In this document: positions 847 through 36,291 of the stretch, in pieces
Position numbering within the stretch: position 1 is the stretch's first letter
How the letters are laid out: each line of letters starts with the position of its first letter
IMG/VR virus record: IMGVR_UViG_3300046000_008568
Location: 1 to 64,000 of that record
Origin: a virus
DNA length: 64,000 nucleotides
Reading direction: 5' to 3' (one strand)
Notes under the pieces: generated by a model
Told to the model about the DNA's origin: nothing
What the model saw: only the letters and a program-made list of their open reading frames with translations
Database searches by the model: none
Position numbers and translations under genes: made by a program

Positions 847-3800
847 ATGAGACCAATAGATAAATTTATATTACACGTTATTCATAATTGGAAAAATAAT
901 CTGAATGAAGCTTATGCTCCTTCTGTTATGACTAAATTAATGGATAAGTTTAAAGAGGAAGCTGACGATTTAAACATTGAAATTAATGACGAACAATTAA
1001 AAACATATATTGAACGTTTTGATACTATGAAAAATTCTCCTAAAATCACGGAGAAGGATTTATTTAAGTATTCATTATCTCAATTAATTAAATTAGTTAC
1101 CGCTTCTCAAGGTGCTGAAGCACCCGAATCAGCTGATATTACTCCTGATGTGGTTTATCATAATGATGATAATACTATTGTTGTTTATAATGGTTCTAAG
1201 GAAGACAATTGTATTACTTATGGGCGTGGTGAAAGATGGTGTATTACTAAAGGTTCATATGCTACATATAGATATAGCGCTGATAGATCATATCCAACAT
1301 TTTATTTAGCTCAAAATAATAATTTATCAAGTGATGATGCTTTAAGCTTTGTTGCTATTCAAGTTAGAGACCCTAAAACAACATCGGAAAACCAAAGATA
1401 CGTTTATACAAATCGTCAAAATTCTCCTCATGAATCTCAACCAATGAGTTTTTCTCAATTAGAGAGAGAAGTCCCTTGGTTACGTGAAATTCCAAATGTA
1501 CAACAAGTACTTAAATACATACCATTAAACACAGGAGAAAAACTAACTCAACAATATAAAAATAAACCTATTGGTATTAGAGAATGGGTTAAATTACCAT
1601 TTAATGTTAAACAACAATATTTAGTAGTTAGAAAAGAAAAAAAATTGTTTGATGATGTTTCTAATGATGAATTTTTATCTAAATATTTATCTAAATTTCC
1701 TCAATTAGCTGAATTTATTGCTATTACTCCTGGGATAATTGAAACTGAAGAATTATTAAAACATTTAGATTCTTTTTCAAATAATGATAGAAGATCAATC
1801 ATAGCTAATATGAGAGATAAAGTAAAGTTATCTAATCTTAAATCTGAAACTTTTCCGTTTGATGTTAAAAAATTATTAACTACATTAGATAAATGGGATT
1901 TAACTAATAATGAAAGAATATACGTTACTAAAGATGGTAACGCTATTGTTAAATTAGATTTAGGAGATAATATTACTGTAGGTATCTATACTGCTGAAGA
2001 TGATTATCCTAGCATTAAATTAAATAAAAGAACATCAAAATATCTTACAGATTATCCTGAACTAGATAAAATACCATTTAGAGATTTAGCTAAATTAGTT
2101 TCTGATGAAGTAATTGATCAAACACTTTTAGACCAAACCCTAGAAGCAGCTAAAAATGATCCGGATTCTGCTATTGTAGTTAAAGATACAGATAATGGAC
2201 AAATCATTGTAGATTCAAATTCATTTGCTTCATATAAAATAGAAAATGGTAAAATAAATCAAATACCATTTGATAGTGAAGAAGTACAAGCTGTATTTGA
2301 TGAACAAGGTGATAATGAAGCTTTTCAAGAAAATGTATTAAAATTATTTAATTCTCGAGAAAATATACCTTCTCAAATAGATAGAGTAGGTTTAACTTCC
2401 ATTTTAAAATCAACTTCAAATGAAAAAAGAACAATTAGCAATGCAGACTATTCTAACTCCCCAGTAGGTATATTAACAACGGATGAAGAAAACCCACTAA
2501 TATTTACAGCTATTGCTCTTCCTAATTTTCGAGGAGAAAGTCCATTTTATGCTAAAACAGTATACGGAAAAAGAAGCGACTGGAGAGATGCATCTACTAA
2601 TGAACGCTTTACTCCAGCAATGGTAGATGCTTATTTTGCTTATTTAAGAGGATTAAATCAAACATTTACAGATGACGGTTTAATTAATGCTCTTTCATCA
2701 TATGGAATGCCAACTGATCTTAAAAGATCAATATTAACAGACCCAAATTTACCTTTACAAGACACAAATATATATCGTCCTGCAGAATATAATGGTACTG
2801 TATATCTAATTAATACCCAAAACCCAGCTAATAGTAAAAAATTATCTGATACTTCAGGTAAATTAATTAAAGCAAATATTAATGCTACTGCCGCTAGACG
2901 TTTATTAAGAACCCAACAAGCAGAACCAGAAGCAGAACCGGAAGCTGAAGCTGAACCAGGAGCAGTAGTACGTGTCCCTCGAGACAATGCACCTCAAGCA
3001 CCACCAGCTGGAGCTCCAGGAGAACGTAGAAGAGGAAGACCAGCAGGTGTCGCAAATACACCTCGTGAAGCACAACCAAGACAAAGAGGTGATGTTAGTA
3101 TATCAACTCAATTTGATGATAGAGGTTTAAGAATTGGATTTGGTGGTTTACCTAGAAGTGATTTTAGAAGATTAAATGTTGATGATGCTGTACAAGTACC
3201 TAGAATAGGGGATAGAGGAGCATCTGCTAGAGATAATCAATTAGGAAGAGCAGGTCAAGTAACTAGTGTTTTTAGTGTAGGACAAAGCAAAATATATTTC
3301 ATTAGACTAAATACTCCTGAACCAACAACAATAGCATCTATTAATATCCAACCAGGAAATAGAAATTATGTTGTAATTGGTAATAGATCTTATTCTTTAA
3401 ATTCACCACGTGAATTAATGACATTTTTACAAAACAGAGATTTAGCAGAAGGTTTGAGAACGTCTATGTTTAAATTACATTTACAAGAAAACCCTCACAT
3501 GATTGATGAAATTAAACAATTAAAAAACAACCCAACAATGGAAGAAGCATATAGCACAGAAGAAAGTTTTAAAGATTATTCAAACGATGCACTTACTGAT
3601 ATGATAATTAATTCATCTAGGTTTGAAGGTAACGAAGAGGGAATTGCAAGAGTAAAAGCTGAATTAGAACGACGTAGACAAAATAAACAAACAACAGATA
3701 ATAAAATGACTAAAGAAGATTTAAAAAACTATATAAGAGAAGCACTTAAAAAACGCTTATCTGAAAACCAACCAGCTCCTTCAAGAGAAACTAGACCTGG

Positions 3801-3954
3801 TGAGACAGAAACTATCCCTGATAAAGGTACTGAAGAAGAGAAAAAACGTCGTCGCATTGGAAATCCAAATGTTGATCCAAAACCAAAAGCGATGAATGAG
3901 ACTGAACAAGAAATGGTAAAACGAATTGTAGCACGATATAAATCTAAAAAATAA
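847..3954 (+). CDS. Large (1035 aa) hypothetical protein with a GERWCIT motif, AT-hook-like RGRP and Pro/Ala/Glu linker
   Basis: The N-terminal third holds a Cys/Trp motif (NCITYGRGERWCIT; C122 and C132) followed by aromatic-rich beta-type sequence. WC..-type motifs of this sort occur in large uncharacterised phage proteins. Residues 690-740 are a low-complexity PEAEPEAEAEP linker running into RRGRPAG, whose RGRP core (729-732) matches an AT-hook; this would suit binding to an AT-rich genome. The C-terminus carries the recurring helix KEDLKNYIREALKKRLSEN and a basic, proline-rich tail. No enzymatic family is recognised. A head-internal or ejected DNA-binding protein is a guess from size, tags and neighbours. 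It ends in TAATG, coupling it to the next gene. Confidence 0.6.
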   Translation: MRPIDKFILHVIHNWKNNLNEAYAPSVMTKLMDKFKEEADDLNIEINDEQLKTYIERFDTMKNSPKITEKDLFKYSLSQLIKLVTASQGAEAPESADITPDVVYHNDDNTIVVYNGSKEDNCITYGRGERWCITKGSYATYRYSADRSYPTFYLAQNNNLSSDDALSFVAIQVRDPKTTSENQRYVYTNRQNSPHESQPMSFSQLEREVPWLREIPNVQQVLKYIPLNTGEKLTQQYKNKPIGIREWVKLPFNVKQQYLVVRKEKKLFDDVSNDEFLSKYLSKFPQLAEFIAITPGIIETEELLKHLDSFSNNDRRSIIANMRDKVKLSNLKSETFPFDVKKLLTTLDKWDLTNNERIYVTKDGNAIVKLDLGDNITVGIYTAEDDYPSIKLNKRTSKYLTDYPELDKIPFRDLAKLVSDEVIDQTLLDQTLEAAKNDPDSAIVVKDTDNGQIIVDSNSFASYKIENGKINQIPFDSEEVQAVFDEQGDNEAFQENVLKLFNSRENIPSQIDRVGLTSILKSTSNEKRTISNADYSNSPVGILTTDEENPLIFTAIALPNFRGESPFYAKTVYGKRSDWRDASTNERFTPAMVDAYFAYLRGLNQTFTDDGLINALSSYGMPTDLKRSILTDPNLPLQDTNIYRPAEYNGTVYLINTQNPANSKKLSDTSGKLIKANINATAARRLLRTQQAEPEAEPEAEAEPGAVVRVPRDNAPQAPPAGAPGERRRGRPAGVANTPREAQPRQRGDVSISTQFDDRGLRIGFGGLPRSDFRRLNVDDAVQVPRIGDRGASARDNQLGRAGQVTSVFSVGQSKIYFIRLNTPEPTTIASINIQPGNRNYVVIGNRSYSLNSPRELMTFLQNRDLAEGLRTSMFKLHLQENPHMIDEIKQLKNNPTMEEAYSTEESFKDYSNDALTDMIINSSRFEGNEEGIARVKAELERRRQNKQTTDNKMTKEDLKNYIREALKKRLSENQPAPSRETRPGETETIPDKGTEEEKKRRRIGNPNVDPKPKAMNETEQEMVKRIVARYKSKK

Positions 3955-4983: not shown

Positions 4984-6051
4984 ATGAGTGATTTTAACCT
5001 ACATAACTTCTTAACCGAACATAAGTTAACTCGTAATTCGGTATTATTAGAAAATGATAATGCTCCTAGTTTTACTAAACAGGAGATGAGATTTTTTAAA
5101 CCTGAAGAAGCAAAATGGAATGGAGAAATGGATGGACTTACTCCTATTGTAACATATAAAGGACATTCATATAAACTAGATGGACCTACTGATACAAACA
5201 ATATAGAAAGAGAACCAGGAGAATCATCAGCAGCAGGAGATGCATATATGTCTACAGATAAACTACCTGGGGCTTGGTTTAAATTTAGTGCTTATTTTGA
5301 ATATGATGGTGACGGATATGGACTTGAAGATCTACTAGATCTAGAAGAAGTAGATCAAGACCCAGTATGGGAAATAGACCCAGACTCAGAAGACATCCCA
5401 GATGAAGAAGAATTTGACTTTGGTGATGAATTAGATGAACGTGACATAAAGGGTAAAGAAGAAAGAATCGTTAAAGCATTAAAAAAAACAGGAAAATATA
5501 GTAAAGACGATCCTGAACTATATAGATTAGCAGCAGGTATAATGAAAAAACAAAAATCAATGAAAGAAGATATAGATGTAGGCCATCAAGATAATGAACC
5601 ACATATGCTTAAAAGCGATGTTTATAGAACTGCTAAAATGGCAGCTATGTTATATAAGCAACTAGACAAATATGACAATGGTCAAGAAGTTGATTTTCCA
5701 CATTGGTGGCAAGCTAAAATAATTAAAGCATACGATTATTTACAAAGCGCTTATGGATATTTAGATGGTGAAGAAAAAGTAACAGCTATTGATTCAATGA
5801 TGAATGAAGTACAAGGCGAAGAATTGAGTCACGATATTGCTCTTATAGGTGGTACATTAAAAAAAATTGAAACAATGATTGACTTTGGTAGAGATCAAGA
5901 TCAAGACGTTGAAGAAGGATTACAAACTGTACTTAATATTTTAATTGATATTCAACATAAATTAGAAACAACCACTAAAGATGCCTCAGATATGGGTGGT
6001 GCTAGTAAATTTTATCAAATGGAAAATATATTAAAACAAATGGGTAAATAA
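4984..6051 (+). CDS. KLTRNS-tagged hypothetical protein (355 aa)
   Basis: The first 25 residues carry the tag [20 protein letters not shown], nearly identical to the tags at residues 1 and 575 of the 7394 product. The rest is acidic and helical, with a very acidic stretch near 115-155 ([25 protein letters not shown]). I recognise no domain. FLTE and LLE within the tag fit the (I/L)xE rule of T4 gp21 prohead protease sites. By analogy with T4 internal-protein leaders, the tag could target the protein into the prohead; this is inference. The stop overlaps the next ATG (TAATG). Confidence 0.6.
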
Positions 6052-7393: not shown

Positions 7394-9886
7394 ATGGACA
7401 ATTTTGACTTAAAACGTTTTCTAATTGAAAATAAATTAACTCGCAACTCAATATTATTAAAAGAAAATATAAACATTGATAAACAGGGAAATCTTATATA
7501 TTCCTTAGAAGATGCAGGTATTGATTATAGTGATAGTTCTGAGATATTATTAACATGGGAAATTGATGAGATAAATCCAAATTTAATAAGAAAGTTTGAA
7601 TGGGATGATACTGAAGATACTATTCATACTTATATTGATGTTGATGAACTTAAAGATTTTATTAAAAATCCTGTAGAACTTATTAAAAAATTTGAAGCAC
7701 CTAATGGGTATGTTGTAGTAGATAAACAGGATGCACGTGATTTAATGGAATCATATTATGAAAACTTTGAGGATGAAATTGACCCTGAATTAAATGAAAA
7801 TCACTTAACTCGTAATTCACAATTAATAGATGAAGCTGTCCAAATAGCTACAGACTATCAATTTAGTCCTGAGCAATATGATGTATTAAAAAAGTTTGGA
7901 GCTAAACTTCATCTTAATGGTCGTGAACTTTTACTCCCAGCAAGAATATATGATGATTTAGAAAAACATGTTAGTAAATCTAATTTTAAACAGGAATTTT
8001 ACAAAACAGTAAAAAATATAGGAGGTGAATCTATAATTTCCCAAATATTAACGGCATTAAAATACTCATTATCTTCAGGGAATACAGCTAATGTAGAAGG
8101 TAAAACATATTACGTTTTACAAGGGAAATTAACTAGAAATGGAAATTTTAATTTTCCTAATCCTTCTAGAACTGGTGGAGCTATAGTTAAAACTAAATTT
8201 CAAGATATAGAACCAGAATCAGAACCAGAAGACATAGCAAATATATCTAAAAAATATAATAAATGGGATGTAGATGCTATAGAAAAAGAAGCTGCTAAAT
8301 ATACTAAAGCTTTTGAATTTGAAAAAGCTAACAGAAATGCCTATAGAGCTTATAGAAGAGCAGTTGACCAAGGTTTAATTCAAAACAAATTTGAAATAGA
8401 TATTAAATGGACTAAAGATGCTATAGAACAAGAAGCAGCTAAATATAACAAACCAAGTGAATTTCAAAAAGCAAATCCAAATGCTTATATAGCATACAGA
8501 AAAGCAGTCAACAAAGGTATTATCCCAAATAAATTTGAAGAACCTTTTAAGTGGACTATTGAAAAACTAGAACAAGAAGCAACCAAATATAATACATCTG
8601 GTGAATTTTCTAAAGCAAGTCCAAATGCTTATGTAGCATACAGAGCAGCAGTCAACAAAGGTATTATCCCAAATAAATTTGAAGAAAATGTTAAATGGAC
8701 TAAAGATACCCTAGAACAGGAAGCTGCTAAATACAATACAGCAGGTGAATTTTCTCAATTAAATCCAAATGCTTATGCAGCATACAGAACAGCAGTTAGA
8801 AAAGATATTATTCAAAACAAATTTGGAGAACGAAAGTATGATATAAAGTGGACCAAAGACGCTTTAGAACAAGAAGCATCTAAGCATAATAGACCAATTG
8901 ACTTTCGAAACTCAAATCCAAATGCTTATAGTTTATACCGAATAGCAGTTAGAAACGGCATAATTCAAGACAAATTTAAACAGAGTAAAACTACTTCTGC
9001 TGATCCTTCCACAACAACATCACAATCTACAAATCCAACTCAATCAAGTAATCTATATAATAATCCCTATTTTGGAAATACAACAACAACATTCGATAAA
9101 TTAAAAGAAAATAAAATGCAAGACTTTGACTTAAAACGTTTTCTAGTTGAAAACAAAATGACTAGAAACTCAAGACTACTAAATGAAAATCTTACCTACG
9201 AAACACTCCCACCAGAGGTAAAACAACGTTATGAAAATAATGGTAGAATAGGGGTTGCTTTTGTAAAAGCAAATGGAGCTGTACGACATATGTCATTTAG
9301 TAAAACACTTAAAGCATACCAACCAAGCACAGCTGCTAAAACAGATGCTCAAGCTAATTATCGTCAAAACAATAATTTATGGAGTGGGTATGATGTAAAT
9401 GAATTTATAAAAGCTAAAAAAGAAACGGGAGATGATGCTGCTGCTGCTAAACAAAGTTTTAGAAACTTTAAATTAGAAAATGTATTAGCTTTTTCTGCTG
9501 GTGGTAGAATATTTGATATGCGTGATTTAAATAACATTGTTGAAAGATTTGGTGAAGATGTAGCAGATCAATTAACCAAAACCATGATTCAATCCCTAGA
9601 AAGAGATTCAGCTGCTACTGAACCAACAGTAGATGAATCTCAATTAAATGAAAATATGTCTGATTTAGTAGTTACTTACTATAAAGATAAAGATAGTTAT
9701 GATGAAAAAGGTCTAGCTGATGGTTTTCATGAAGAAGAAGGAAAAAAAGTAAAATTCATTGTTGGGTATGATGATATGGATGAAATAGATGATATAGGAT
9801 ATATCTATTCAAAAAGTGGAAAGGATATTGAAACTGAATACACTGAAGATGATTTAGATAATACTTTTATGAATTCATTACAATAA
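7394..9886 (+). CDS. Multi-tag protein (830 aa) with three KLTRNS tags and five 48-residue repeats; possible head-internal polyprotein
   Basis: Tag 1 (FDLKRFLIENKLTRNSILL) is at residues 4-22, tag 2 (NENHLTRNSQLIDEA) at 134-148, and tag 3 (MQDFDLKRFLVENKMTRNS) at 575-593. Residues 290-532 are five tandem units of about 48 residues starting KW[TD].[ED].[IL]E.EA.K[YH] and ending AYR.AV..GII.[ND]KF; similar units occur in phage endonuclease-associated proteins and may be helix-turn-helix-like DNA binders. A Thr/Ser/Asn-rich linker (537-572) precedes tag 3. The ATG of tag 3 (9116) follows an AAAGAAAATAAA leader and could be an internal start. Each tag ends near an (I/L)xE sequence suited to a gp21-like protease. 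Function is unproven. Confidence 0.65.
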   Translation: MDNFDLKRFLIENKLTRNSILLKENINIDKQGNLIYSLEDAGIDYSDSSEILLTWEIDEINPNLIRKFEWDDTEDTIHTYIDVDELKDFIKNPVELIKKFEAPNGYVVVDKQDARDLMESYYENFEDEIDPELNENHLTRNSQLIDEAVQIATDYQFSPEQYDVLKKFGAKLHLNGRELLLPARIYDDLEKHVSKSNFKQEFYKTVKNIGGESIISQILTALKYSLSSGNTANVEGKTYYVLQGKLTRNGNFNFPNPSRTGGAIVKTKFQDIEPESEPEDIANISKKYNKWDVDAIEKEAAKYTKAFEFEKANRNAYRAYRRAVDQGLIQNKFEIDIKWTKDAIEQEAAKYNKPSEFQKANPNAYIAYRKAVNKGIIPNKFEEPFKWTIEKLEQEATKYNTSGEFSKASPNAYVAYRAAVNKGIIPNKFEENVKWTKDTLEQEAAKYNTAGEFSQLNPNAYAAYRTAVRKDIIQNKFGERKYDIKWTKDALEQEASKHNRPIDFRNSNPNAYSLYRIAVRNGIIQDKFKQSKTTSADPSTTTSQSTNPTQSSNLYNNPYFGNTTTTFDKLKENKMQDFDLKRFLVENKMTRNSRLLNENLTYETLPPEVKQRYENNGRIGVAFVKANGAVRHMSFSKTLKAYQPSTAAKTDAQANYRQNNNLWSGYDVNEFIKAKKETGDDAAAAKQSFRNFKLENVLAFSAGGRIFDMRDLNNIVERFGEDVADQLTKTMIQSLERDSAATEPTVDESQLNENMSDLVVTYYKDKDSYDEKGLADGFHEEEGKKVKFIVGYDDMDEIDDIGYIYSKSGKDIETEYTEDDLDNTFMNSLQ
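8261..8989 (+). repeat. Five tandem ~48-codon repeats
   Basis: Units begin at bases 8261, 8405, 8549, 8693 and 8846 (codons 290, 338, 386, 434 and 485). The spacing is 144, 144, 144 and 153 bases, the fourth unit carrying three extra codons. They are clearly diverged copies of one module, not recent exact duplications. Confidence 0.9.
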
Positions 9887-12367: not shown

Positions 12368-13030
12368 ATGAAAATATCCGAATTAAAAGAAACTATTCGA
12401 GCTAAAGTACGCAAAAAACTTAGTGAAGCAACTATTGATGTTACTAACCCTGCTACAGAAACTCCTCAAACTAAAAAATCAAAAATAGATATAGCTAGAA
12501 GAATAACAGGAAATAAAAATCTTGGAACAGAAAAAGATCCAGTTGAATTTATTGAAGAAACCAATAAATTTACTGCGGATAGAATTAATAAAATGGGTCG
12601 TACCGAATTAATCGATTTTTTAGGTTTAACTAGAGAAGAAGCTAGAAACTGGTCGGATACTCAACTATTTGGAGCTGCTAGAGAATTAGCAGATGATATG
12701 AAAGAACCAGTAGATGAAGCAGATTATATTGATGATGACGATACTGTTCATGAAGGTGTAGATGATGATAATACTGATTTTAAAGACTACGATTCAATAT
12801 ATGAGGATATGGAAGATACTTCTCCAAATGTAGACAAATATAAATTAGGAGAAATAGAAAGAAATGATGAATTTAGAGCTAACGTTGGTTCTGGACATCG
12901 TGGAGTATCTGTTAAATCACACCCAATGGATCCTCGTTTAATAATAATATCTCAAGACAATGGACAAAGAGTTGTAGTTGAGGTTGAAGATATTAATAAT
13001 TTAATTAATGTCTTACAAGACTTAACATAA
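12368..13030 (+). CDS. Hypothetical acidic protein with N-terminal KETIRAKVRKKLSEA leader-like helix
   Basis: The first 21 residues (MKISELKETIRAKVRKKLSE followed by A) form a basic amphipathic helix ending in LSE, compatible with an (I/L)xE^A prohead-protease site and similar in size to T4 internal-protein leaders. The body is acidic (DDDDTVHEGVDDDNTD near 123-138). The C-terminal 60 residues look like a small beta domain (KSHPMDPRLIIISQDNGQRVVVEVEDI). It sits directly before the terminase with its own late-type element and a downstream terminator. It could be a small terminase partner or a head-internal protein; neither is demonstrated. Confidence 0.55.
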   Translation: MKISELKETIRAKVRKKLSEATIDVTNPATETPQTKKSKIDIARRITGNKNLGTEKDPVEFIEETNKFTADRINKMGRTELIDFLGLTREEARNWSDTQLFGAARELADDMKEPVDEADYIDDDDTVHEGVDDDNTDFKDYDSIYEDMEDTSPNVDKYKLGEIERNDEFRANVGSGHRGVSVKSHPMDPRLIIISQDNGQRVVVEVEDINNLINVLQDLT

Positions 13031-19854: not shown

Positions 19855-20496
19855 ATGAGCAAACAACTATTAATAGAACGTATTTCCAATTTTACTTTAA
19901 CGCCCCAACTATTACAAGAGTCAGTTAGAGTAAATAAAGGCCGTCTTATTGTTGAAGGAGTAGTACAACGTGCTAATGCTGAAAACGGTAATAGACGTGT
20001 TTATCCTGAGGATACTTTAAGAAGAGAAGTACAGAAATATAAAGACACATATATTAAGGAAAATAGAGCATTAGGTGAATTAGATCATCCTGAATCTCCA
20101 ATTATCAATTTAAAAAATGTATGTCATAATATATTAGATTTATGGTGGCAAGGTGATGATGTAATGGGTAAAATTGAAATATTACCTACACCATCTGGAA
20201 ACATATTAAAAGAATTACTTTTAGCAGGTATTACTGTTGGTATTTCTTCTCGTGCTATGGGGTCTGTAAAACAAATTGGTGAAACAGTTGAAGTACAAGA
20301 CGATTTAGATATCGTATGTTGGGATTTTGTTTCAACACCATCAACACAAGGTGCGTTTATGGAAATTGTAAATGAATCTCTTAATCATAATGCACCAAAA
20401 CAACAACCACAATTGCAAAAAATTAACGAATTAATAACAGATATTCTTTGCAACAGAGCTGGATTTTGCTCTTGCGATTTACCAAATACCAAATAA
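19855..20496 (+). CDS. Prohead core protease (T4 gp21-like)
   Basis: Maturation serine protease of the T4 gp21 (peptidase U9) family. RALGELDHPESP carries the catalytic histidine (H78) and GITVGISSRAMGS the nucleophilic serine (S131 or S132). The opening RLIVEGVVQRANAENGNRRVYPEDTLRREV is the typical N-terminal strand pair. It lies directly before the scaffold/capsid unit, as in T4. It should cleave head proteins after (I/L)xE sequences, and many neighbouring proteins offer such sites near their N-termini. The end is cysteine-rich (CNRAGFCSCDLP), which is unusual for the family and may bind a metal. Confidence 0.93.
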   Translation: MSKQLLIERISNFTLTPQLLQESVRVNKGRLIVEGVVQRANAENGNRRVYPEDTLRREVQKYKDTYIKENRALGELDHPESPIINLKNVCHNILDLWWQGDDVMGKIEILPTPSGNILKELLLAGITVGISSRAMGSVKQIGETVEVQDDLDIVCWDFVSTPSTQGAFMEIVNESLNHNAPKQQPQLQKINELITDILCNRAGFCSCDLPNTK

Positions 20497-21464: not shown

Positions 21465-22634
21465 ATGAAAGACACAAAAGCCCTTTTAAAGGAAGCTATT
21501 GCTGATGCTAAAGCCGTTCGTGAAACCGCTCTTACACAAGCAAAACTTGCTCTTGAAGAAGCCTTCGCTCCACGTCTACAGTCAATGTTCTCTGCTCGAT
21601 TAAGAGAAGAATATGAAGCTGAAGGTCAAATGGATGAAGAATTCGACGAAAACATGATGAATGATATCCCTATGGAGGGACATGACCAAGACAACTCTAT
21701 AGACGAAATCGACCTTGACGAAATTCTTGCAGAATTAGAAAATGAATTAAACGAAGCAAAAGACGAAGACGAAGAAGAAATGATCGACGCTGAAGAAGAT
21801 GCTGAAGACATTGAAGATGATGCTAAAGAAGACGAAGAAGAGGAAAAAGAAGTTAAAGACTTATCTATGGATGAGTTAGAAAGTTTAATTAAAGACATCA
21901 TCTCTCAGGAAACTGGAGGTGCTGGTGACGGAGAAGGCTACGAAGACGAAGCTGAAGTTGACGCTATGGATATGGCTGGTGATGCAGAAATAGCTGCAGA
22001 CGAGGAAGACATAAATTTAGAAGAAGACTTAGACGACATCTTAGCTGAGTTATTAGGTGAAAAAAGAGAAAGCCGTGCTGAAAGATCTAAAGTAGACAAA
22101 TATGAATACGAAAAAGGTAAAAAAGCAGGTGAATTAGACGAACGTAAAAAACAAGGCTACGACGATCGTGAAGACGAAAGAGAAGCAGGAAAACATGGTA
22201 AAATAGGTTCAAAAGATCTTAATACTACTAAAGCCCGCAGAGATGATGCCGGATTTGAGAAAAGAATGAATGAAGAATTAGCATTAGCTTTAGAAGCTGT
22301 TAAAACTCTTCGTACTGAACTTAATGAAGTTAATCTATTAAACGCTAAGTTACTTTACGTTAATAAAATCTTTAACGCTAAAAACTTAAACGAGTCACAA
22401 AAATTAAAAGTTGTGAAAGCATTTGACAAAGCAGAATCTGCTAAAGAAGCTAAATTAGTATATGAGTCACTTTCAGAAGCATTCGTTGCTCCTACTAAAG
22501 GTAAAACTCAATTGAAAGAATCATTAGGATTCGCTTCTAAAGCTGCAGGTATGGCTCCTAGAAAACTAATCGTTGAAAACAACGAATGGATAACTAGAAT
22601 GCAAAAATTAGCAAACATAAACCAAACAAATTAA
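21465..22634 (+). CDS. Prohead core scaffold protein (T4 gp22-like)
   Basis: The helical N-terminus (KDTKALLKEAIADAKAVRETALTQAKLALEEAF) is followed by a long acidic middle (DEDEEEMIDAEEDAEDIEDDAKEDEEEEK and similar, residues 95-205) and a charged helical C-terminus. This is the composition and position of T4 gp22, the assembly core degraded by gp21. It precedes the capsid gene by 10 bases in the same unit. At 389 residues it is longer than T4 gp22, mostly because of the acidic insert. Multiple (I/L)xE sites are present, as expected for a protein digested during maturation. Confidence 0.88.
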   Translation: MKDTKALLKEAIADAKAVRETALTQAKLALEEAFAPRLQSMFSARLREEYEAEGQMDEEFDENMMNDIPMEGHDQDNSIDEIDLDEILAELENELNEAKDEDEEEMIDAEEDAEDIEDDAKEDEEEEKEVKDLSMDELESLIKDIISQETGGAGDGEGYEDEAEVDAMDMAGDAEIAADEEDINLEEDLDDILAELLGEKRESRAERSKVDKYEYEKGKKAGELDERKKQGYDDREDEREAGKHGKIGSKDLNTTKARRDDAGFEKRMNEELALALEAVKTLRTELNEVNLLNAKLLYVNKIFNAKNLNESQKLKVVKAFDKAESAKEAKLVYESLSEAFVAPTKGKTQLKESLGFASKAAGMAPRKLIVENNEWITRMQKLANINQTN

Positions 22635-27956: not shown

Positions 27957-30900
27957 ATGGCTCTATATAACTGGCTAGTCCAAAGTTGCTGCAATCCCTC
28001 TATTACTAAAGTTATTAAATATACCCGTATTCTATATACAGGTATAATTTTTCAAGATTCTTTAAGTAATTGCTATCAAGTAATAGCTCCAACTAACGCT
28101 ACACCAAATATATCCCTCCCAGACCTTGTACCTCTTTATAACACTTGTGATGATTGTTTAATCGATTTACCACCATGTAATCCTAAAGAACCTACTACAG
28201 TTTGGTTAGTTCAAAGCTGCTGTGATAAAGCAATTACCCAAATAGTTGTTAATAATAATATAATCCCTGGAGATATATTTCAAGACTCATTAGGTGATTG
28301 TTATACTGTATTAACAGTTACCGAAGGCAATCCTACTATAGTAATAATAGATGAAACTATATATAAAACATGTGAAGATTGTAAACCTTGTGTTTCAACA
28401 TCACCTACACCAACACCATCTATAACACAGTCACCGTTTCCTACTCCTAGTATAACGCCCTCTGTAACGGTTACACCATCACCATCTCCTGTTACGTTTG
28501 TTAATAGTTCACCTAGTCCAACACCAACAGTAACTGTTAGTAGAACACCTAGTGTAACACCATCTCCTGGAACCCCTGAATGTAAATGTATTACTTATAT
28601 TAATACTAGTGAATTTAGTTCATACCAAAGTTTTTATACAACTTGTGATGGATTTGTTGGAGCTCAGTTTACAATAGCTCCACAACAAACAATTCAAATA
28701 TGTGGTAGCAATCCATCTGCAGGAAACCCTGCCGTAACATTTTATACAGGAAGTTATTGCCAAAATGAAGAATGTGTTGCTCCTGACATTTCCCCATCAC
28801 CAACACCAACTCCATCAGCTACTTTAGTTACTGTTCCTGTATTTGAACCAGAGCCTTTATGTATGGATGTAGTGTTTGGTCCTGCACCATCACCTAGTGC
28901 AACTCCTTCTATAACAGTATCAGCAACACCATCTGTAACAGTAAGTACATCACGATATCCAGAGTTTCCTTCATTAACACCTACATCGACACCATCTGTT
29001 ACTCCTAGTATTACGCCAACTAAAACACCGTCTATTAGTGTTTCATCAACACCAAGTGTTACTCCTAGTGTGACACCAACAAAAACGGCTACACCAAGTG
29101 TTACTCCTAGTAAAACACCATCGATAACAGTATCACCAAGTAAAACACCAACACCTACACCTAGTCCGTCCTCTAATGCTTTAATAGTATCTGAGTGTTC
29201 TGTAATATATAATGGTGGGGGACCTAATCAAGTTTATGCTTATAACAGTACTACTAATGTTTCTACTTTATTAAATTTAGGTACGTCTCCACTACAAGTA
29301 GGTTCATCTGATATTGCTCATACTAATACAAAATTGTGGTTATATGCCTCTTTAAATGGTGCTACTAGTACTATTTTTGAATATAATATAACATTAAGCC
29401 CTTTTACATCTGTATATAATAGAGCTATTAATATCCCCGTAGGAATTGCTTTAGGATCAGGTATATGCGCTATTGATAATACAACCTTATTATCCTCAGA
29501 TCAATTTAATAATGATCAAATTATTCAAATTACATTAAATCCTTCACCGGATAATACTGTTGTTATAACAAATTTATTTACTTTATCTTCTGGAAGAGTA
29601 ATATCCGGAGATTTATTATACACAACAGATGGGAAGGTTATTGTAACAACACAAACGCGAAATGCTCCTTATTCATATTGGATTTCTCAATATACTTTAG
29701 GAGGAACATTAGAATTTGATTTACCTATTACTTCAACTGCTCCTTTTCCTTATGGTTTAGCTACAATAAATGGTGGTATTTATATTTTTAGTGGGAGTAA
29801 TCTTAAACAAATAAGTACTACATTTCCATATACTATTACTCAAGTAAATAATATTGGTAACGCGTTAGCCGGAGCATCACAAGTACCAAGTTGTTGTAAT
29901 GTTTCATTTCAACCAAATGTAATAGGTGTCTCATCATCACCGACACCAACGCCTACTAAAACAGTAACACCGTCAATAACACCAACACCAAGTACAACAC
30001 CGTTTAGAACGCCTACACCAACACCATCAAAATCACCACCAAATAATATACCGTGTACTGGAAATGGAGCACTACCTTTACCTGGAAATAATGTTACCTA
30101 TAATGGAGTTACTATAACAATATCAGGAACGGGAAATATTAGTTTATATCCTAATGCTTGGGCATCGTGTAACACAACAACTCCTGCTAACACAGCATGG
30201 TTAGGTTTATCCGGAGCTTTTACATATATTTTAACATTTAGTCAACCTGTTAATAATATTAGAATACCTATAACTGGTTTAAGTACTGATTTTGATGAAA
30301 ATATTTTTGAAATTTTTACATTTACTACAAGTGGAGGAACTCCAACAATAACAAGTCCTAATAATTGCTTTAGCGCAATAACAGGAAATCAAATTTCCTC
30401 TAATGGTACAGAAGACACTAATAATGGTGGAGGTTTATTTACTATTTCTTCTCCTAGCTCATTTAATACATTAACCATAACAGGTCAAGGAGGAAGTGGT
30501 GGTTCTTTATTTGGTATTGATTGTACTTCAATCCTACCAGCGCCACCGGCAAATTGTGTTTCGTGTAATACAATTGCAATGCCTCCAACTGGAACAGGTA
30601 CTATAACTAATGGAAATTTAACAGTTAGTACAACATATAGTGGCCCGGAATTAGTTCTTGGTCCGGCTAATGGTTCTCCTTTTGCTACTTGTACAAATGT
30701 ATCTCTTCCATTACCCTTTGTAATTTTAGGAGCAACTCCTGGGGCTTTTATTTATACCTTAAACTTTAACCAACCTGTTAATAATATAAAATTTTTAATA
30801 TCGGGAGCCGGAACAACTTACAATCCAACAGCACTTGAAACTTTTACATTTAATACAAGCGGAGGAACCCCTACACTCTCTACTTGTGGACCATCATGTG

Positions 30901-33900
30901 GTACTACAATAAACAATAATGTCATAACATTAGAATATGTTTCACCTAACGGGGGTGGTGCTTTAACTCAAGTAAATGCAACTAATCCTTATACTCAAAT
31001 AATAATAACAGGAAACGGTGGAGCAGATGGCTCCGGGTTTAGTTTATGTTTAGACACAGCAACACCATTACCATCACCATCTCCTTCTGCAACACCATCA
31101 ATAACAGTATCACCAAGTAAAACACCATCAGTAACTGCTACACCTAGTATCTCTATTAGTGCTACACCAAGCGTAACACCATCGATAACTGTTACTCCTA
31201 GTATAACAATTAGTCCGTCTCGTACGCCAAGTGTAACGCCGTCACCTTCTTTACCGTCGGATGTATGTCCTTTAATTTATACTACTGCTCTTCAATCATA
31301 TAATGGAACTAGTTTAACTAATGGTTATTATACTAAAAATTATACTTGGAACCCTAATACTAATGTTCAACAAGAAATAATATTATCTAATGATGTTGTA
31401 GGTAATGACATTGCCTCTACTGAAACTAAATTATGGAAAAGCTGGGGAGTATTTAATCCTATTGCTCAAACCTATAGCTATAATATCAATGAATGGAACC
31501 TTTCTGGAAACCCTCCATACACAGCAACTTTTAATAGAACACTTCTATACCCTTCAGGATACACTGCTAGTCCAGGACTAACAGCAAAAGATAATAATAC
31601 ACTTGTAGATGTTGCTTCTACTATTGTAAATGGGCAAACAGTATGGAAAGTTTATGAATTAAATATTCCTACCGCTCCGGCAACACAATTAACAACAACG
31701 TTTAAATTTAACTTAAATAGCAATTTTCAAGGTCAAGGAGATCTAATGTTAACCTCAGATGCAAATGGTAATCCTGATAAACTTTTATTAGCATGTGCTG
31801 TATCTAACCCAACCCCAGGTACTACAAATAGCATAATTGCTCTTCAACAATACGATTATAATACTGGAGCTTTTGAATATGAAATTACATTAATACCCCC
31901 AACAACCTCACCAACAGCCGGTCTTATAGCTGGTATTGCTCAATTTAATAATATAATATATGTTTTCTTTAAGGATGGTTATCCTAATTTACCTGCTTTA
32001 ACTGGGTGGGTTTATTCAATAAATCCAAATCCACCATATAACTGGACTTTAGTAAATAATATATTAGATTCGGGTGGATCAAATTCATTATTATCATGTT
32101 CTAAAGGTAAATTATTAGGGCCTAATGCTAGTGGGTGTGATACTATGTTGTATAGAACTCAAACCAAGGGATATGGTTCATATAACTTTACAACTAATAC
32201 ATCCGCAGTACTTAGTGTAACAGCAAACCCATACCCTGCTAATGATAATACAAATAATCTCCCTACAGTTATTGCTAATACAAGCAATAAAATGTGGGTA
32301 TATGCTACTGGAGCTGCTACTTCTGAAGTTAATTTAAGAGAAAGTAATATAGTATTATCTCCATTTTCTTCTACCTTTAATAGAAATATAGCTTTACCAA
32401 CTGGTCTTAAACCAAATAATGGATTATTTGCTCTAAATAATTCTACTTTAGTAGGTTCATACAAAATAACTAGTCCGGACAGTAGTGGAAATTTATATTC
32501 TCAACCTATAGTTGAAATAAATATACCGGCTGATGGCACCTCAAATCCTATAGCTACTTTTGTTACTAAATGTTTTTTACCAATACAAACAGAACCTGTT
32601 GGTGGGTTGGTAGTAACTAATGGTGTTAATCCAAAACTTATCATTTTAGTTAGAGATACAAATACTCCTACTATCATTATCCTCCTTCAGTACAATTATA
32701 CTACGGGGGATTTAGAGTTATATAAATCATTATCACCAACTATTACAACTCCTAGTGGATTAGTTGAATTAAATGGAAATATATACATTATCGGGTACAA
32801 CATGTATAAAATAGATACTGCTACACCGTATGCTCTAACGTTAGTCCAAAACCCAGGACTAGCCTTAATTAATGCTTCTCAACTATCCAATTGTATTAAT
32901 ACTAACTTTATAATACCTAATAATTGCGATACTTGTACCCCAGCGTTACTCCCTAAATTTAGTCCTGTTACGTATGGTGGAGTTACATTAACCCCATCAT
33001 TTACTGGGATTACTCCTAATTCAATGCCATATAGTGATATAGGATGTTCCGGGACTAACACAGTACTTAATGCTTCAAATACAGTCTGGTTAGGTTGGTA
33101 TCCTGGTGATTTTACTTATACTCTAACATTTAGCCAACCCGTTAATGACATAGTATTATTACTAACCGGTATGGGGGATAGTCCTATAGCTACTGGAGGT
33201 CATTATGAATCTTTTGCTTTTAATACTAATGGTGGGATTCCTTCTCTTACAGCATGTAAGGGATGTTTTGATAATATTAATGCAAATACGGTAACTGGAT
33301 CTGTTTTTGGGCTCAATAGTTTAAACCAAAATATTACAGGAGGTGGATTTCTTAAAGTACATGCAAGCAGTTTGTATACTACTTTAACTATTTCGGGTCC
33401 TGGTGGAATACAAGGTACAGTTTTTGGTATATGTGCCGCTTCTGTATTACCAGCACCAGCTGTTAGCCCATCACCAAGTCCAACACCATCTCCATCACCT
33501 CCATGTACACCATGTGCTTTACCTAATGTAATAATAGGAACACAAACATGGACAGCATGTAATTTAGATGTTACTACTTATAGAAATGGTGATGTCATAC
33601 CACAAGTTACAGATCCAACAGCTTGGAATACTCTAACTACAGGAGCTTGGTGTTACTACGACAACAACCCAACTAATGGTTGTACATATAATAAACTATA
33701 CAACTGGTATGCTGTAAATGATCCTCGTGGATTAGCTCCTGTCGGTTATCATGTACCAACAGAGGCTGAAATTGAAACATTGCGCCAGTATTTGGGGGGT
33801 ACAAATGTAGCCGGAGGTAAATTAAAACGAACAGGAACTACACTTTGGAATAGTCCTAATACAGGAGCAACAAATGAAACAGGTTGGACAGGACTACCAG

Positions 33901-34973
33901 GAGGAGGAAGAGAAAATGCCCAATTTGGGGGTATAAAATCATTTGGGCCTTTCTGGACTTCTACAGCTATCTCAACCCCTGGATATACTAATCTAGCAAT
34001 ATATGCTGATTTATATTATAATAATTCATTACTTGACCTTAAAGGATTCTCTAAAACTAGTGGATATTCCGTACGTTTAATTAAAGATATTAGTTCATTA
34101 GGATGTGTTTATTATAGCACAGGTGGTGCTTCTACATACAATTATAATATTACTACTAATACCTCAACACCAATTACGTTACCCGGAGATAATACAAGTA
34201 ATATGGTTGAAGCTCACACAACAACTAAATATTGGAAAGGAAACCAAACTAATTATATTAACGAATGGAATGTATCAAACAATCCAACAACATTAACATT
34301 TAACAGAACCATATCAATTTCTGGATATTCAGGACCCCAGTTTAATTATTTACAAGCAATAGATAATACTAATTTGCTTACTACGCTTGTTAATTATAGT
34401 TCAACATATAATCCTGCGGGACCATTTGTTAATCCTTTAGTTAAATTAAATATAACAAATAATACTGTTACGGCTACTCAAATGACAACTATGTTTAACA
34501 TATATGCTCCTTCGGGATTGGATGCCCTTATGTTAACAGCCACTAATAAAGTAATAACAGTTGGAAGACGAGCAACCTCATCAACCCAATACGTCTACTA
34601 CTTATCCCAATACTCATACCCAGATGGGGCTTTAGAATTAGATATTGATTTATCATCAACAATTCCTGCCGGGAATAGTACGTATTCCTTTAAATTATTC
34701 GAATCAAATGGAAATTTATATGTAGCTGTTAGTTCAACATACCCAAATGAAATTATATACAATATTAACTTAAACAGCCCTTATACATTTACACCGGTTC
34801 GGACTACTACTAACCCCAATCAATGGTTTGCATCATATAATTCATCAATTAATTGCAATACAGTTAACTTAAATGTAAATCCAAACCCATCACCATCGCC
34901 AACACCAACACCATCTCCATCAGCACCATCAACTGCTTTTAGAACAATATACAAATATTTAGATATTCAATAA
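27957..34973 (+). CDS. Giant mosaic adhesin (2338 aa) with Pro/Thr/Ser linkers and a Fibrobacter-succinogenes-type paralogous domain
   Basis: Modules in order: two Cys-rich repeats (WLVQSCC...FQDSL..CY...C.DC, residues 1-145); PTS linkers of T-P-S-x-T type (147-208, 307-406, 660-697, 1037-1101, 1835-1852, 2310-2327); four copies of a ~250-residue propeller-like unit (about 408-658, 1102-1391, 1394-1652, 2045-2305; each has a 'T..KLW' strand and an 'NTT' turn); three copies of a ~160-residue beta domain with SQPVN(N/D)I and FTSGGTP (700-862, 867-1037, 1658-1832); and a domain at 1855-2045 with IIGTQTW, WYAVNDPRGLAPVGYHVPTEAEIETL and GGGREN, characteristic of TIGR02145, found mainly in Bacteroidota/Fibrobacteres. 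It is probably a receptor-binding fibre or surface-adhesion protein. Confidence 0.8.
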   Translation: MALYNWLVQSCCNPSITKVIKYTRILYTGIIFQDSLSNCYQVIAPTNATPNISLPDLVPLYNTCDDCLIDLPPCNPKEPTTVWLVQSCCDKAITQIVVNNNIIPGDIFQDSLGDCYTVLTVTEGNPTIVIIDETIYKTCEDCKPCVSTSPTPTPSITQSPFPTPSITPSVTVTPSPSPVTFVNSSPSPTPTVTVSRTPSVTPSPGTPECKCITYINTSEFSSYQSFYTTCDGFVGAQFTIAPQQTIQICGSNPSAGNPAVTFYTGSYCQNEECVAPDISPSPTPTPSATLVTVPVFEPEPLCMDVVFGPAPSPSATPSITVSATPSVTVSTSRYPEFPSLTPTSTPSVTPSITPTKTPSISVSSTPSVTPSVTPTKTATPSVTPSKTPSITVSPSKTPTPTPSPSSNALIVSECSVIYNGGGPNQVYAYNSTTNVSTLLNLGTSPLQVGSSDIAHTNTKLWLYASLNGATSTIFEYNITLSPFTSVYNRAINIPVGIALGSGICAIDNTTLLSSDQFNNDQIIQITLNPSPDNTVVITNLFTLSSGRVISGDLLYTTDGKVIVTTQTRNAPYSYWISQYTLGGTLEFDLPITSTAPFPYGLATINGGIYIFSGSNLKQISTTFPYTITQVNNIGNALAGASQVPSCCNVSFQPNVIGVSSSPTPTPTKTVTPSITPTPSTTPFRTPTPTPSKSPPNNIPCTGNGALPLPGNNVTYNGVTITISGTGNISLYPNAWASCNTTTPANTAWLGLSGAFTYILTFSQPVNNIRIPITGLSTDFDENIFEIFTFTTSGGTPTITSPNNCFSAITGNQISSNGTEDTNNGGGLFTISSPSSFNTLTITGQGGSGGSLFGIDCTSILPAPPANCVSCNTIAMPPTGTGTITNGNLTVSTTYSGPELVLGPANGSPFATCTNVSLPLPFVILGATPGAFIYTLNFNQPVNNIKFLISGAGTTYNPTALETFTFNTSGGTPTLSTCGPSCGTTINNNVITLEYVSPNGGGALTQVNATNPYTQIIITGNGGADGSGFSLCLDTATPLPSPSPSATPSITVSPSKTPSVTATPSISISATPSVTPSITVTPSITISPSRTPSVTPSPSLPSDVCPLIYTTALQSYNGTSLTNGYYTKNYTWNPNTNVQQEIILSNDVVGNDIASTETKLWKSWGVFNPIAQTYSYNINEWNLSGNPPYTATFNRTLLYPSGYTASPGLTAKDNNTLVDVASTIVNGQTVWKVYELNIPTAPATQLTTTFKFNLNSNFQGQGDLMLTSDANGNPDKLLLACAVSNPTPGTTNSIIALQQYDYNTGAFEYEITLIPPTTSPTAGLIAGIAQFNNIIYVFFKDGYPNLPALTGWVYSINPNPPYNWTLVNNILDSGGSNSLLSCSKGKLLGPNASGCDTMLYRTQTKGYGSYNFTTNTSAVLSVTANPYPANDNTNNLPTVIANTSNKMWVYATGAATSEVNLRESNIVLSPFSSTFNRNIALPTGLKPNNGLFALNNSTLVGSYKITSPDSSGNLYSQPIVEINIPADGTSNPIATFVTKCFLPIQTEPVGGLVVTNGVNPKLIILVRDTNTPTIIILLQYNYTTGDLELYKSLSPTITTPSGLVELNGNIYIIGYNMYKIDTATPYALTLVQNPGLALINASQLSNCINTNFIIPNNCDTCTPALLPKFSPVTYGGVTLTPSFTGITPNSMPYSDIGCSGTNTVLNASNTVWLGWYPGDFTYTLTFSQPVNDIVLLLTGMGDSPIATGGHYESFAFNTNGGIPSLTACKGCFDNINANTVTGSVFGLNSLNQNITGGGFLKVHASSLYTTLTISGPGGIQGTVFGICAASVLPAPAVSPSPSPTPSPSPPCTPCALPNVIIGTQTWTACNLDVTTYRNGDVIPQVTDPTAWNTLTTGAWCYYDNNPTNGCTYNKLYNWYAVNDPRGLAPVGYHVPTEAEIETLRQYLGGTNVAGGKLKRTGTTLWNSPNTGATNETGWTGLPGGGRENAQFGGIKSFGPFWTSTAISTPGYTNLAIYADLYYNNSLLDLKGFSKTSGYSVRLIKDISSLGCVYYSTGGASTYNYNITTNTSTPITLPGDNTSNMVEAHTTTKYWKGNQTNYINEWNVSNNPTTLTFNRTISISGYSGPQFNYLQAIDNTNLLTTLVNYSSTYNPAGPFVNPLVKLNITNNTVTATQMTTMFNIYAPSGLDALMLTATNKVITVGRRATSSTQYVYYLSQYSYPDGALELDIDLSSTIPAGNSTYSFKLFESNGNLYVAVSSTYPNEIIYNINLNSPYTFTPVRTTTNPNQWFASYNSSINCNTVNLNVNPNPSPSPTPTPSPSAPSTAFRTIYKYLDIQ
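28395..29175 (+). repeat. Pro/Thr/Ser linker repeats (first cluster)
   Basis: Imperfect ACACCATCT/ACTCCTAGT-type repeats encoding TPSxTPS at 28395-28580, 28790-28825 and 28876-29175. Related tracts recur at 29935-30045, 31066-31260 and 33460-33510 in this gene, at 36784-36855, 37171-37315 and 37552-37645 in the next fibre, and at 45532-45725 in the gp15-like gene. They are candidate recombination points for swapping adhesin domains. Confidence 0.85.
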
Positions 34974-34974
34974 T

Positions 34975-36291
34975 ATGTTAACAGAACCAATTAAACAAAA
35001 AATAGAAGACTTATTTCAATCTACTCCCGATTATGTAGGAGTAGGATGGAGTCATAAAATTAGTAAAGATCAACCTATTGGAGAGCCTACTATAGTATTT
35101 AACGTACCTAAAAAACTACCATTAAGTGAAATACCTGAAGAAGAACATTTACCCTCAACAGTTGAAATTGATGGTGTTGCTTATAAAACAGATGTTATTG
35201 AAATTGGGCACGTTGTACCTTTATCATGTCCTCAAACTACATTAAATACTTGTTATACTTGGACTTGGTTTCAATTTCAATATCCCGCTGGAGGTCCTAT
35301 TTACCCTGCTGGAAATACACCCCCAGGAAATAGAGGTGTTATACGCCCTATGAAAGGTGGTATTTCAATAACATCTTTTAATAATGGAACTAAAGTAGGT
35401 ACTTTAGGATTTTTAGCTGTAGATAATGCAAAGAATGCATTAGTTGGAGTTACAAATAATCATGTTGTTGTAGATACTGCATTTTACACCAATTATAGAA
35501 ATGTAACTAATTCTAACGAATACCAAGATCAATACTACCAACCAGGAGAAGTAGGACCAAATTCAGATTATATGGTTGGTGAAGTAGTAAGATATGTTCC
35601 TATAGTTCCTCAACCTTCTGTAAATCAAGTAGATGGAGCTTTAGTTACAATTGATCCTAGTAAAGTAACAAACGCTGAATCATTTAAACAGTATGGAACA
35701 AGTATTTTAACTCCTATGCCGTTTGCTACAACAACAGAAATAAATGATCTTCCAATTGGAACTACTCTACTAGTTAGTTCTGGTAGATCATCGGGTGTTA
35801 AATCATCTACATCTTGTGGAATAAGACTTAAGGATACTAATGTTAGCGTACCATTATCAGTAGTAGTACCAGCACCACCCGCTGTACCATATGGAGGATA
35901 TAATCTAAATGGAACACCAACAGGAGCTAATTTTACCAACCAAATCCAATTCACCAGAACAGATCTTGAACCAAACGGAGATCCATCATGCCCTTTTCCA
36001 ATATATGGAGGGGACTCAGGATCAGCATTGTGTGCTTATATTGGAGGTGTTTGGAAAATTATAGGATTAGTATTTGCTGGATCTCAAATGTTTGGATTTG
36101 CTAATAGAATAGATAATGTAGCAGCTCAATTAAATATATCTGCTTGGGATGGTACAACTAAAAATTATTTTAATACTGGTTCAAGACAATACATAACTAC
36201 TATTGGAGGTAGCCCTGATAAAACATTACCTTGTGCTAGTAATATTTATTGGCAAGTAGGGACAACAAGTTTAATTAATCCTTGCCCTTAA
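34975..36291 (+). CDS. Trypsin-like serine protease (PA clan), virion-locus
   Basis: The chymotrypsin-fold triad appears in order: VTNNHVVVD (H163), QVDGALVTID (D220) and PIYGGDSGSAL (S348; the classical GDSGS). GIRLKDT and the final KIIGLVFAGS fit the S1 pocket strands and C-terminal barrel. The N-terminal 90 residues (PTIVFNVPKKLPLSEIPEE) may be a propeptide or adaptor. It lies between two adhesin genes in the fibre locus (1 base after the giant adhesin, 4 before the next fibre). It may process fibres or degrade host-surface protein; both are inference. There is no signal peptide. Confidence 0.85.
   Translation: MLTEPIKQKIEDLFQSTPDYVGVGWSHKISKDQPIGEPTIVFNVPKKLPLSEIPEEEHLPSTVEIDGVAYKTDVIEIGHVVPLSCPQTTLNTCYTWTWFQFQYPAGGPIYPAGNTPPGNRGVIRPMKGGISITSFNNGTKVGTLGFLAVDNAKNALVGVTNNHVVVDTAFYTNYRNVTNSNEYQDQYYQPGEVGPNSDYMVGEVVRYVPIVPQPSVNQVDGALVTIDPSKVTNAESFKQYGTSILTPMPFATTTEINDLPIGTTLLVSSGRSSGVKSSTSCGIRLKDTNVSVPLSVVVPAPPAVPYGGYNLNGTPTGANFTNQIQFTRTDLEPNGDPSCPFPIYGGDSGSALCAYIGGVWKIIGLVFAGSQMFGFANRIDNVAAQLNISAWDGTTKNYFNTGSRQYITTIGGSPDKTLPCASNIYWQVGTTSLINPCP

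Follow-up and report, generated by a model that had tools for sequence, protein, structure and literature searches.

We regard it as probable that the open reading frame (ORF) at positions 7394 to 9886 of the window, which is the whole 64,000-base stretch analysed here (bases 1-64000 of a virus record of 165,861 bases), encodes several head-internal and probably injected cargo proteins as one modular polyprotein, which would be targeted by its tags and cut by the S77 prohead protease. The tags, their conserved LxE ends, split and fused relatives, an exchange of cassettes at LxE and the protease gene were observed directly; targeting, cutting, virion location and injection are all inferred from comparative evidence, with no proteomics. 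The source phage is T4-like and probably infects Bacteroidota, the host being inferred from Flavobacterium phage immuto.

Results

Organization of the tagged ORF

An 830-residue ORF carrying three tags had been described in a first-pass annotation, and both proved to be real: the ORF has an ATG start and its patterned LxE-N motif exceeds what shuffling produces, with seven occurrences of [LI]xE followed by N, compared with an average of 0.81 over 2000 shuffled versions, not one of which had as many. Plain [LI]xE was not enriched in this ORF (11 against 9.5 in shuffles). The tags give segments of about 132, 441 and 256 residues, in line with the split of roughly 130, 440 and 255 claimed originally, and the low-complexity linker placed before the third tag (a Ser/Thr/Asn-rich stretch) and the Met at 9116 with its A-rich leader (aaattaaaagaaaataaa) are both present. 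The tag boundaries of the three claimed units stand, but the units are four, the last one behind the LNE at residues 751-753; the middle unit also holds five repeats, each about 48 residues long, that had been overlooked. The features are as follows.

7394..9886, +, proposed polyprotein, ORF open for 830 codons from an ATG start, 95.6 kDa
7394..7465, +, tag 1, residues 1-24 (MDNFDLKRFLIENKLTRNSILLKE), ending in LLKE and then N
7466..7798, +, unit 1, residues 25-135, acidic, its limits deduced from LxE sites
7790..7834, +, tag 2, a half tag, residues 133-147 (LNENHLTRNSQLIDE), LNE-NHLTRNSQL-IDE
7835..9109, +, unit 2, residues 148-572, basic
8261..8986, +, five repeats of ~48 residues each, within unit 2
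8987..9100, +, linker rich in Ser/Thr/Asn, residues ~532-569
9101..9109, +, LKE site before N, junction with tag 3
9116..9187, +, tag 3, residues 575-598 (MQDFDLKRFLVENKMTRNSRLLNE)
9188..9652, +, unit 3 (U3a), residues 599-753, weak phrog_2267 match
9644..9652, +, LNE site (DESQLNE) before N, residues 751-753, module boundary
9653..9883, +, unit 4, residues 754-830

Tags 1 and 3 are near copies, with 81% of 75 nt in common, and tag 2 is the second tag half only, with an LxE motif at either end. The LKE site at 9101..9109 is kept as LxEN in the related loci L006, L009 and L030. Additional LxE motifs lie within units, after residues 59, 119 and 717, so some of the motifs cannot be boundaries. 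Cuts would be expected after residues 24, 135, 147, 572, 598 and 753, releasing short tag peptides and four proteins, predicted as unit 1 (111 aa, 13.1 kDa, pI 4.1, if cut at both ends), unit 2 (425 aa, 48.6 kDa, pI 9.3), unit 3 (155 aa, 17.4 kDa) and unit 4 (77 aa, 8.9 kDa, pI 4.1). No Pfam or PHROG match to a peptidase domain was obtained in the 830-aa ORF.

Genome setting and prohead protease

Head genes lie downstream of the ORF, namely terminase (13114), portal (14714), prohead protease (19855), a scaffold-like gene (21465) and the major capsid protein gene (22645). The terminase, portal, scaffold and capsid names were read from translations, and homologous annotated immuto genes occur in the same order. 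By gene order, the Peptidase_S77 gene stands beside the portal, scaffold and capsid genes:

19855..20496, +, S77 prohead protease of the T4 gp21 family (PF03420, E 2.4e-28; phrog_207, E 4e-57)

We infer this enzyme to be the cutter of the 830-aa chain, for which there are no cutting data. Bacterial genomes were searched for the protease and none was found. Further along the window, ORF 27957-34973 (2338 residues) has many Ser/Pro/Thr-rich stretches, ORF 34975-36291 has a GGDSGSA stretch and, by eye only, the look of a trypsin-type protease, and ORF 38219-42271 (1350 residues) contains a long run of SHAEG-type repeats.

Distribution and sequence of the tag

The tag was surveyed in two IMG/VR scans and in immuto; the second scan confirmed 277 of its 384 pattern matches, and the best 80 of the 277 were used. 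L-numbers such as L003 and L022 designate loci on related contigs. The survey gave at least 181 tagged ORFs, at least 86 of them non-redundant after removal of near-duplicates. The non-redundant ORFs span 71-850 aa, have bodies that mostly remained unmatched and, like tag 1 of the window, mostly carry the leader at the N-terminus. More than one tag is present in nine of the 86, and an open fragment with a single interior tag (L093) is a tenth case beside these. Tags at residues 10-38 in L046, L103 and L108 were judged from the leaders to reflect over-long ORF starts and were left out of the internal tags. Tag carriers in immuto are gp076, gp077 and gp092, and a tag profile search found two more ORFs in the phage under study:

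4984..6051, +, second ORF with the same N-terminal tag (tag 4984-5055)
139010-139492, third ORF of the phage with the same leader

The tag is about 24 residues long and usually holds two LxE motifs. Its core, FDLKKFLVENKLTxNS, is conserved as strongly as the site itself; among 19 typed tags F4 is invariant and F9, L10 and E12 are nearly so. The aromatic residues are spaced by 5, against 3 in T4 ipIII (positions 4 and 7), and tag 2 is without the aromatic half. The tag is not confined to the 830-residue protein; judged by its sequence, it is a capsid-targeting-like leader common to many unrelated phage proteins, and it offers a handle for spotting likely head-internal, possibly injected proteins among unnamed phage genes.

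At L063, L070, L103 and L110, three to four consecutive genes are tagged and have differing bodies, an arrangement resembling an unfused polyprotein.

An LxE motif marks tag ends and junctions

Because the tag profile could have selected its own last columns, the search was repeated with a model stopping at NS, in which the motif is not part of the profile. Within eight residues, [LIV]xE followed 91 of 93 tags; the background rate was 1374 of 14659 windows (9.4%). Of the two exceptions, one holds VKE within the extrapolated tag. Counted from the core, [LIVM]xE lies at most 7 residues behind it in 90/92 tags (background 1306/14524 windows, 9.0%). Another four tags lack the core pattern and had been set aside by the script; by eye, each of them ends in [LIV]xE. 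The motif is offset by 0, 1 or 2 in 3, 15 and 72 tags, respectively, by 5 in one, and is absent in one; [LIV]xE is retained despite altered spacing after the tag core. Various residues follow the tag-end E, most often Glu (18).

Ahead of internal tags, [LIVM]xE[NGAS] occurs within 17 residues in 8 of 11 cases (background 7.1%). The three without a close preceding LxE[NGAS] include tag 2, whose LNE-N falls inside the matched tag; in L039 the motif is present, but further upstream of the internal tag. Across the 86 proteins, alignments end within 5 residues of an LxE in 17 of 46 instances, against 10.9% of positions, a test that is only moderate given that the points are not independent and that many of the misses are ends inside the 48-residue repeats. 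The earlier suggestion that the tags are protease sites yielding several head-internal proteins is supported by the [LIV]xE after the tags, while cleavage itself and presence in the virion remain inferences.

Units are split, fused and exchanged among relatives

We compared the locus between the exonuclease and FAD-type oxidoreductase genes (the second name being read from sequence) and found these arrangements.

Window, L003, L005: tag, U1, tag 2, U2 with five repeats, LKEN, tag 3, U3a, QLNE, U4a
L004: same order as the window, with U4b last
L006-L008: tag, repeats, LKEN, tag, U3b
L009: tag, another unit, IKEN, tag, U3b, QIDE, U4d
L030: tag, first unit as in L009, LNEN, tag, U3b, QLDE, U4e
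L022: two separate genes, tag-U22-U4a and tag-U3b-U4d
L023, L024: single gene, tag-U3b-U4d
L025: tag-U3b
L033: tag-U3a-U4c

The idea that the third unit might be a fused gene, with relatives possibly split at the same boundaries, was borne out. In L022 the MQDFDL-tagged unit is a separate gene that starts, at the counterpart of Met 9116, 31 nt beyond where another tagged gene ends; in L033 unit 3 is a stand-alone tagged gene, 87-88% identical. Unit 4 (U4a) stands behind a different unit in L022, and the five last units (U4a-U4e) showed no mutual likeness at E 1 or better. U3b scored above the cut-off for WYL_2 (PF10902) in L022 and L023 and just below it in L030, and U3a matched weakly, below the cut-off, in L033; the WYL_2 unit stands by itself in L023, L024 and L025 and is split in L022. 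A search of the phage collection yielded no relative of unit 3, and in IMG/VR the unit was found at only four loci, three of which hold the same chain as the window.

The DNA of L004 and of the window is identical from the start codon to about residue 720 and 95% identical over the next 20 codons, then diverges around DESQL(N/D)E into unrelated last units and, by eye, is alike again past the stop codons. L033 matches U3a up to DESQIDE and continues into a third unrelated last unit. The border at DESQL(N/D)E has an LxE only, the tag being absent. We interpret the swap of last units between L004 and the window, from this pattern of identity, as a recent exchange, which reveals the fourth unit.

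A comparable situation was found in a second family. Immuto carries two distinct tagged genes, gp077 (333 aa) and gp076 (99 aa), with one base in common. In L039, L042, L115, L117 and L123 the gp077 homologue is joined to a second tagged unit; in L111 it is unfused. The fused members have a new stretch with ALQE/N, ALQE/G or ALAE/N ahead of the internal tag. In a tree of the exonuclease gene, fused and split loci occurred in each main branch; some nodes were poorly supported and two rows were partial, and no count of fusions was drawn.

Internal starts and alternative readings

The ATG at 9116 has A at -3 and -6 within its A-rich leader, and A at -3 favours initiation in F. johnsoniae (PMC6847099), so an internal start may be possible in the window, perhaps in addition to cutting. 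The leader is also homologous to a true 5' leader, the untranslated acaataaataaaaataaa ahead of the ATG of the separate L022 gene. The homologous 18 nt are translated as TIKENK in L009 and TLNENK in L030, each 16/18 identical to L022, and as KLKENK in the window and L006 (14/18); leaders of other tagged genes match the L022 leader at a mean of 9.7/18 and a maximum of 14 (n=79). A single stretch of DNA appears to exist in two states, as the leader in L022 and as the cutting site in the fused chains; in which direction it changed is not known. Such features speak for a chain that is never cut, in which tag 3 would be a fossil of gene fusion and units 3-4 would also be made from Met 9116. We find this unlikely: at tag 2 there is no start codon (the only ATG lies 15 codons before it), the internal tag of L042 has none either, the nearest being at +11, and that of L115 has none from -15 to +11, which makes proteolysis simpler than internal initiation as a means of freeing these particular units. 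An uncut chain would also leave unexplained the LxE at tag ends and junctions and at the tagless DESQL(N/D)E cassette border, and internal initiation can in any case operate alongside cutting. A weaker argument comes from TATTTAT, which within 45 nt precedes 28 of 82 N-terminal tags and 0 of 11 internal ones, weak since only about 34% of the genes have it. This heptamer is possibly a late promoter; support for the late-promoter idea (TATTTATAA) is weak, with 10 occurrences in the window against 6.1 expected.

If the tags were instead docking peptides that are not cut, for example scaffold-binding cargo signals whose copies raise avidity, the protein would stay whole in the head. The strong conservation of the core suits this possibility, as does docking in related T4-type systems, where cutting follows (PMC9026906); we give it still less credence, given that [LIV]xE is kept when spacing after the core changes and is also found at a tagless boundary where whole units swap. 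Adjacent tagged genes being common (as at L063, L070, L103 and L110), an assembly or sequencing artefact could in principle have joined neighbours into one ORF. We find this scarcely credible, as this chain recurs on L003, L004 and L005, each a separate contig, and L006, L009 and L030 have different fused chains bearing the same tag. The preferred reading, a tag-targeted polyprotein cut by the prohead protease, has its own weaknesses, in that LxE is a short motif and targeting by an internal tag is without data.

Repeats of unit 2 and function of the cargo

The repeats of unit 2 are predicted to form three-helix units (model pLDDT 82, pTM 0.48) and match phrog_20046, of unknown function; similar repeats follow the GIY-YIG nuclease domain of a Rhizobium phage protein. 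Searches of Pfam, PHROGs and solved structures gave no confident identity for them. Foldseek returned nothing below E 4.8 against the PDB and mainly unnamed phage proteins against BFVD (best E 2.1e-4). An EF-hand_2 assignment fell below the Pfam cut-off, and we put the matches to spike proteins (E 0.0056 and 0.44) down to a chance resemblance of coiled coils. It is no more than a weak guess by analogy, without binding data, that this basic repeat unit may bind nucleic acid. The function of the cargo units is unknown; that they may act against host defences is likewise a guess, made because T4 internal proteins are described (PMC3012670) as varied defence proteins sharing one targeting sequence.

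Other tag classes

Two further kinds of leader, class II and class III, were chosen by eye from N-termini. The class II leader heads ORF 12368-13030 and has an internal copy elsewhere:

3706..3765, +, class II internal tag (MTKEDLKNYIREALKKRLSE) near the C-terminus of ORF 847-3954, with LSE/N behind

This internal tag is kept in all five homologues of ORF 847-3954 that reach the region (L004, L022, L023, L025 and L033), and the ORF is a possible second polyprotein. The third kind of leader is found on ORF 139779-140075.

The third N-terminal leader (MKKQFITEAKRLQKLAGI; L013 15779-16075) has RxQKLAG in common with the C-terminus of the scaffold-like protein. ORF 21465-22634, the scaffold-like ORF of the window, has RMQKLAN at its C-terminal end (22596-22616), and in relatives the RxQKLAG motif is also at this end. 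Over all loci, overlapping ones not removed, RxQKLAG occurs nine times near N-termini and nine times near C-termini. Through this motif, cargo may mimic the end of the scaffold.

Discussion

In the mechanism we propose, the tag would carry the chain into the prohead, to its scaffold core, as does the capsid-targeting sequence of T4, and the L/I-x-E at the tag end would serve as the site for the S77 prohead protease of the phage. If so, a tailed phage fills its head by way of a polyprotein with repeated targeting signals, and the enzyme that matures the shell also cuts a cargo polyprotein; the reading predicts the exact N-termini of the products. In one lineage the leader of a downstream gene, once translated, appears to have been turned into a cutting site (L022 against L009 and L030). 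Whether Bacteroidota T4-like phages in general possess a modular cargo system, with dozens of tagged proteins, at least three tag families and protease-cut polyproteins whose cassettes are swapped at the cut sites, is in our judgement evenly balanced. In the open-access literature searched, we found no phage head polyprotein described as bearing targeting tags inside the chain.

The closest parallel is with phage T4, in which gp21 cleaves after L/I-x-E, the first ten residues of IPIII are enough for packaging, and residues 4 and 7 act mainly in targeting and 8 and 10 in processing, as reported in a review (PMC9026906). In NC_000866, T4 ipII and ipIII start with MKTYQEFIAE/A, with aromatics at 4 and 7 and I8-x-E10. 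T4 ipI, ipII, ipIII and Alt share with the tag a short N-terminal leader with an aromatic pair and I/L-x-E on unrelated proteins, and in both phages an S77 protease is encoded alongside the leaders. Tag and T4 leader follow the same order (aromatic, aromatic, hydrophobic, x, Glu), but the aromatics of the tag stand two residues further apart. Unlike the T4 leaders, the tag is longer and has little sequence likeness to them, and it occurs in internal copies, in a multi-unit chain and in tandem tagged genes; T4 tags are N-terminal, whereas tags 2 and 3 here are internal. The likeness to T4 capsid targeting is one of layout, and common descent is not shown.

In the giant phages SPN3US and phiKZ, head-internal proteins are cut after x-x-E by a relative of gp21, sometimes at several sites (PMC10052503 and PMC9026906). 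There the cuts remove propeptides and the SPN3US motif is AxE, whereas the cuts proposed here follow L/IxE and would divide the chain into several exchangeable proteins. Phages and plasmids also have polyvalent proteins, which carry many domains per chain and are packed with DNA; the authors of PMC5512222 compare them to viral polyproteins, and their release is proposed to occur via peptidase domains within the chain. The present chain differs from them in having no peptidase domain, its likely cutter being the structural protease of the head.
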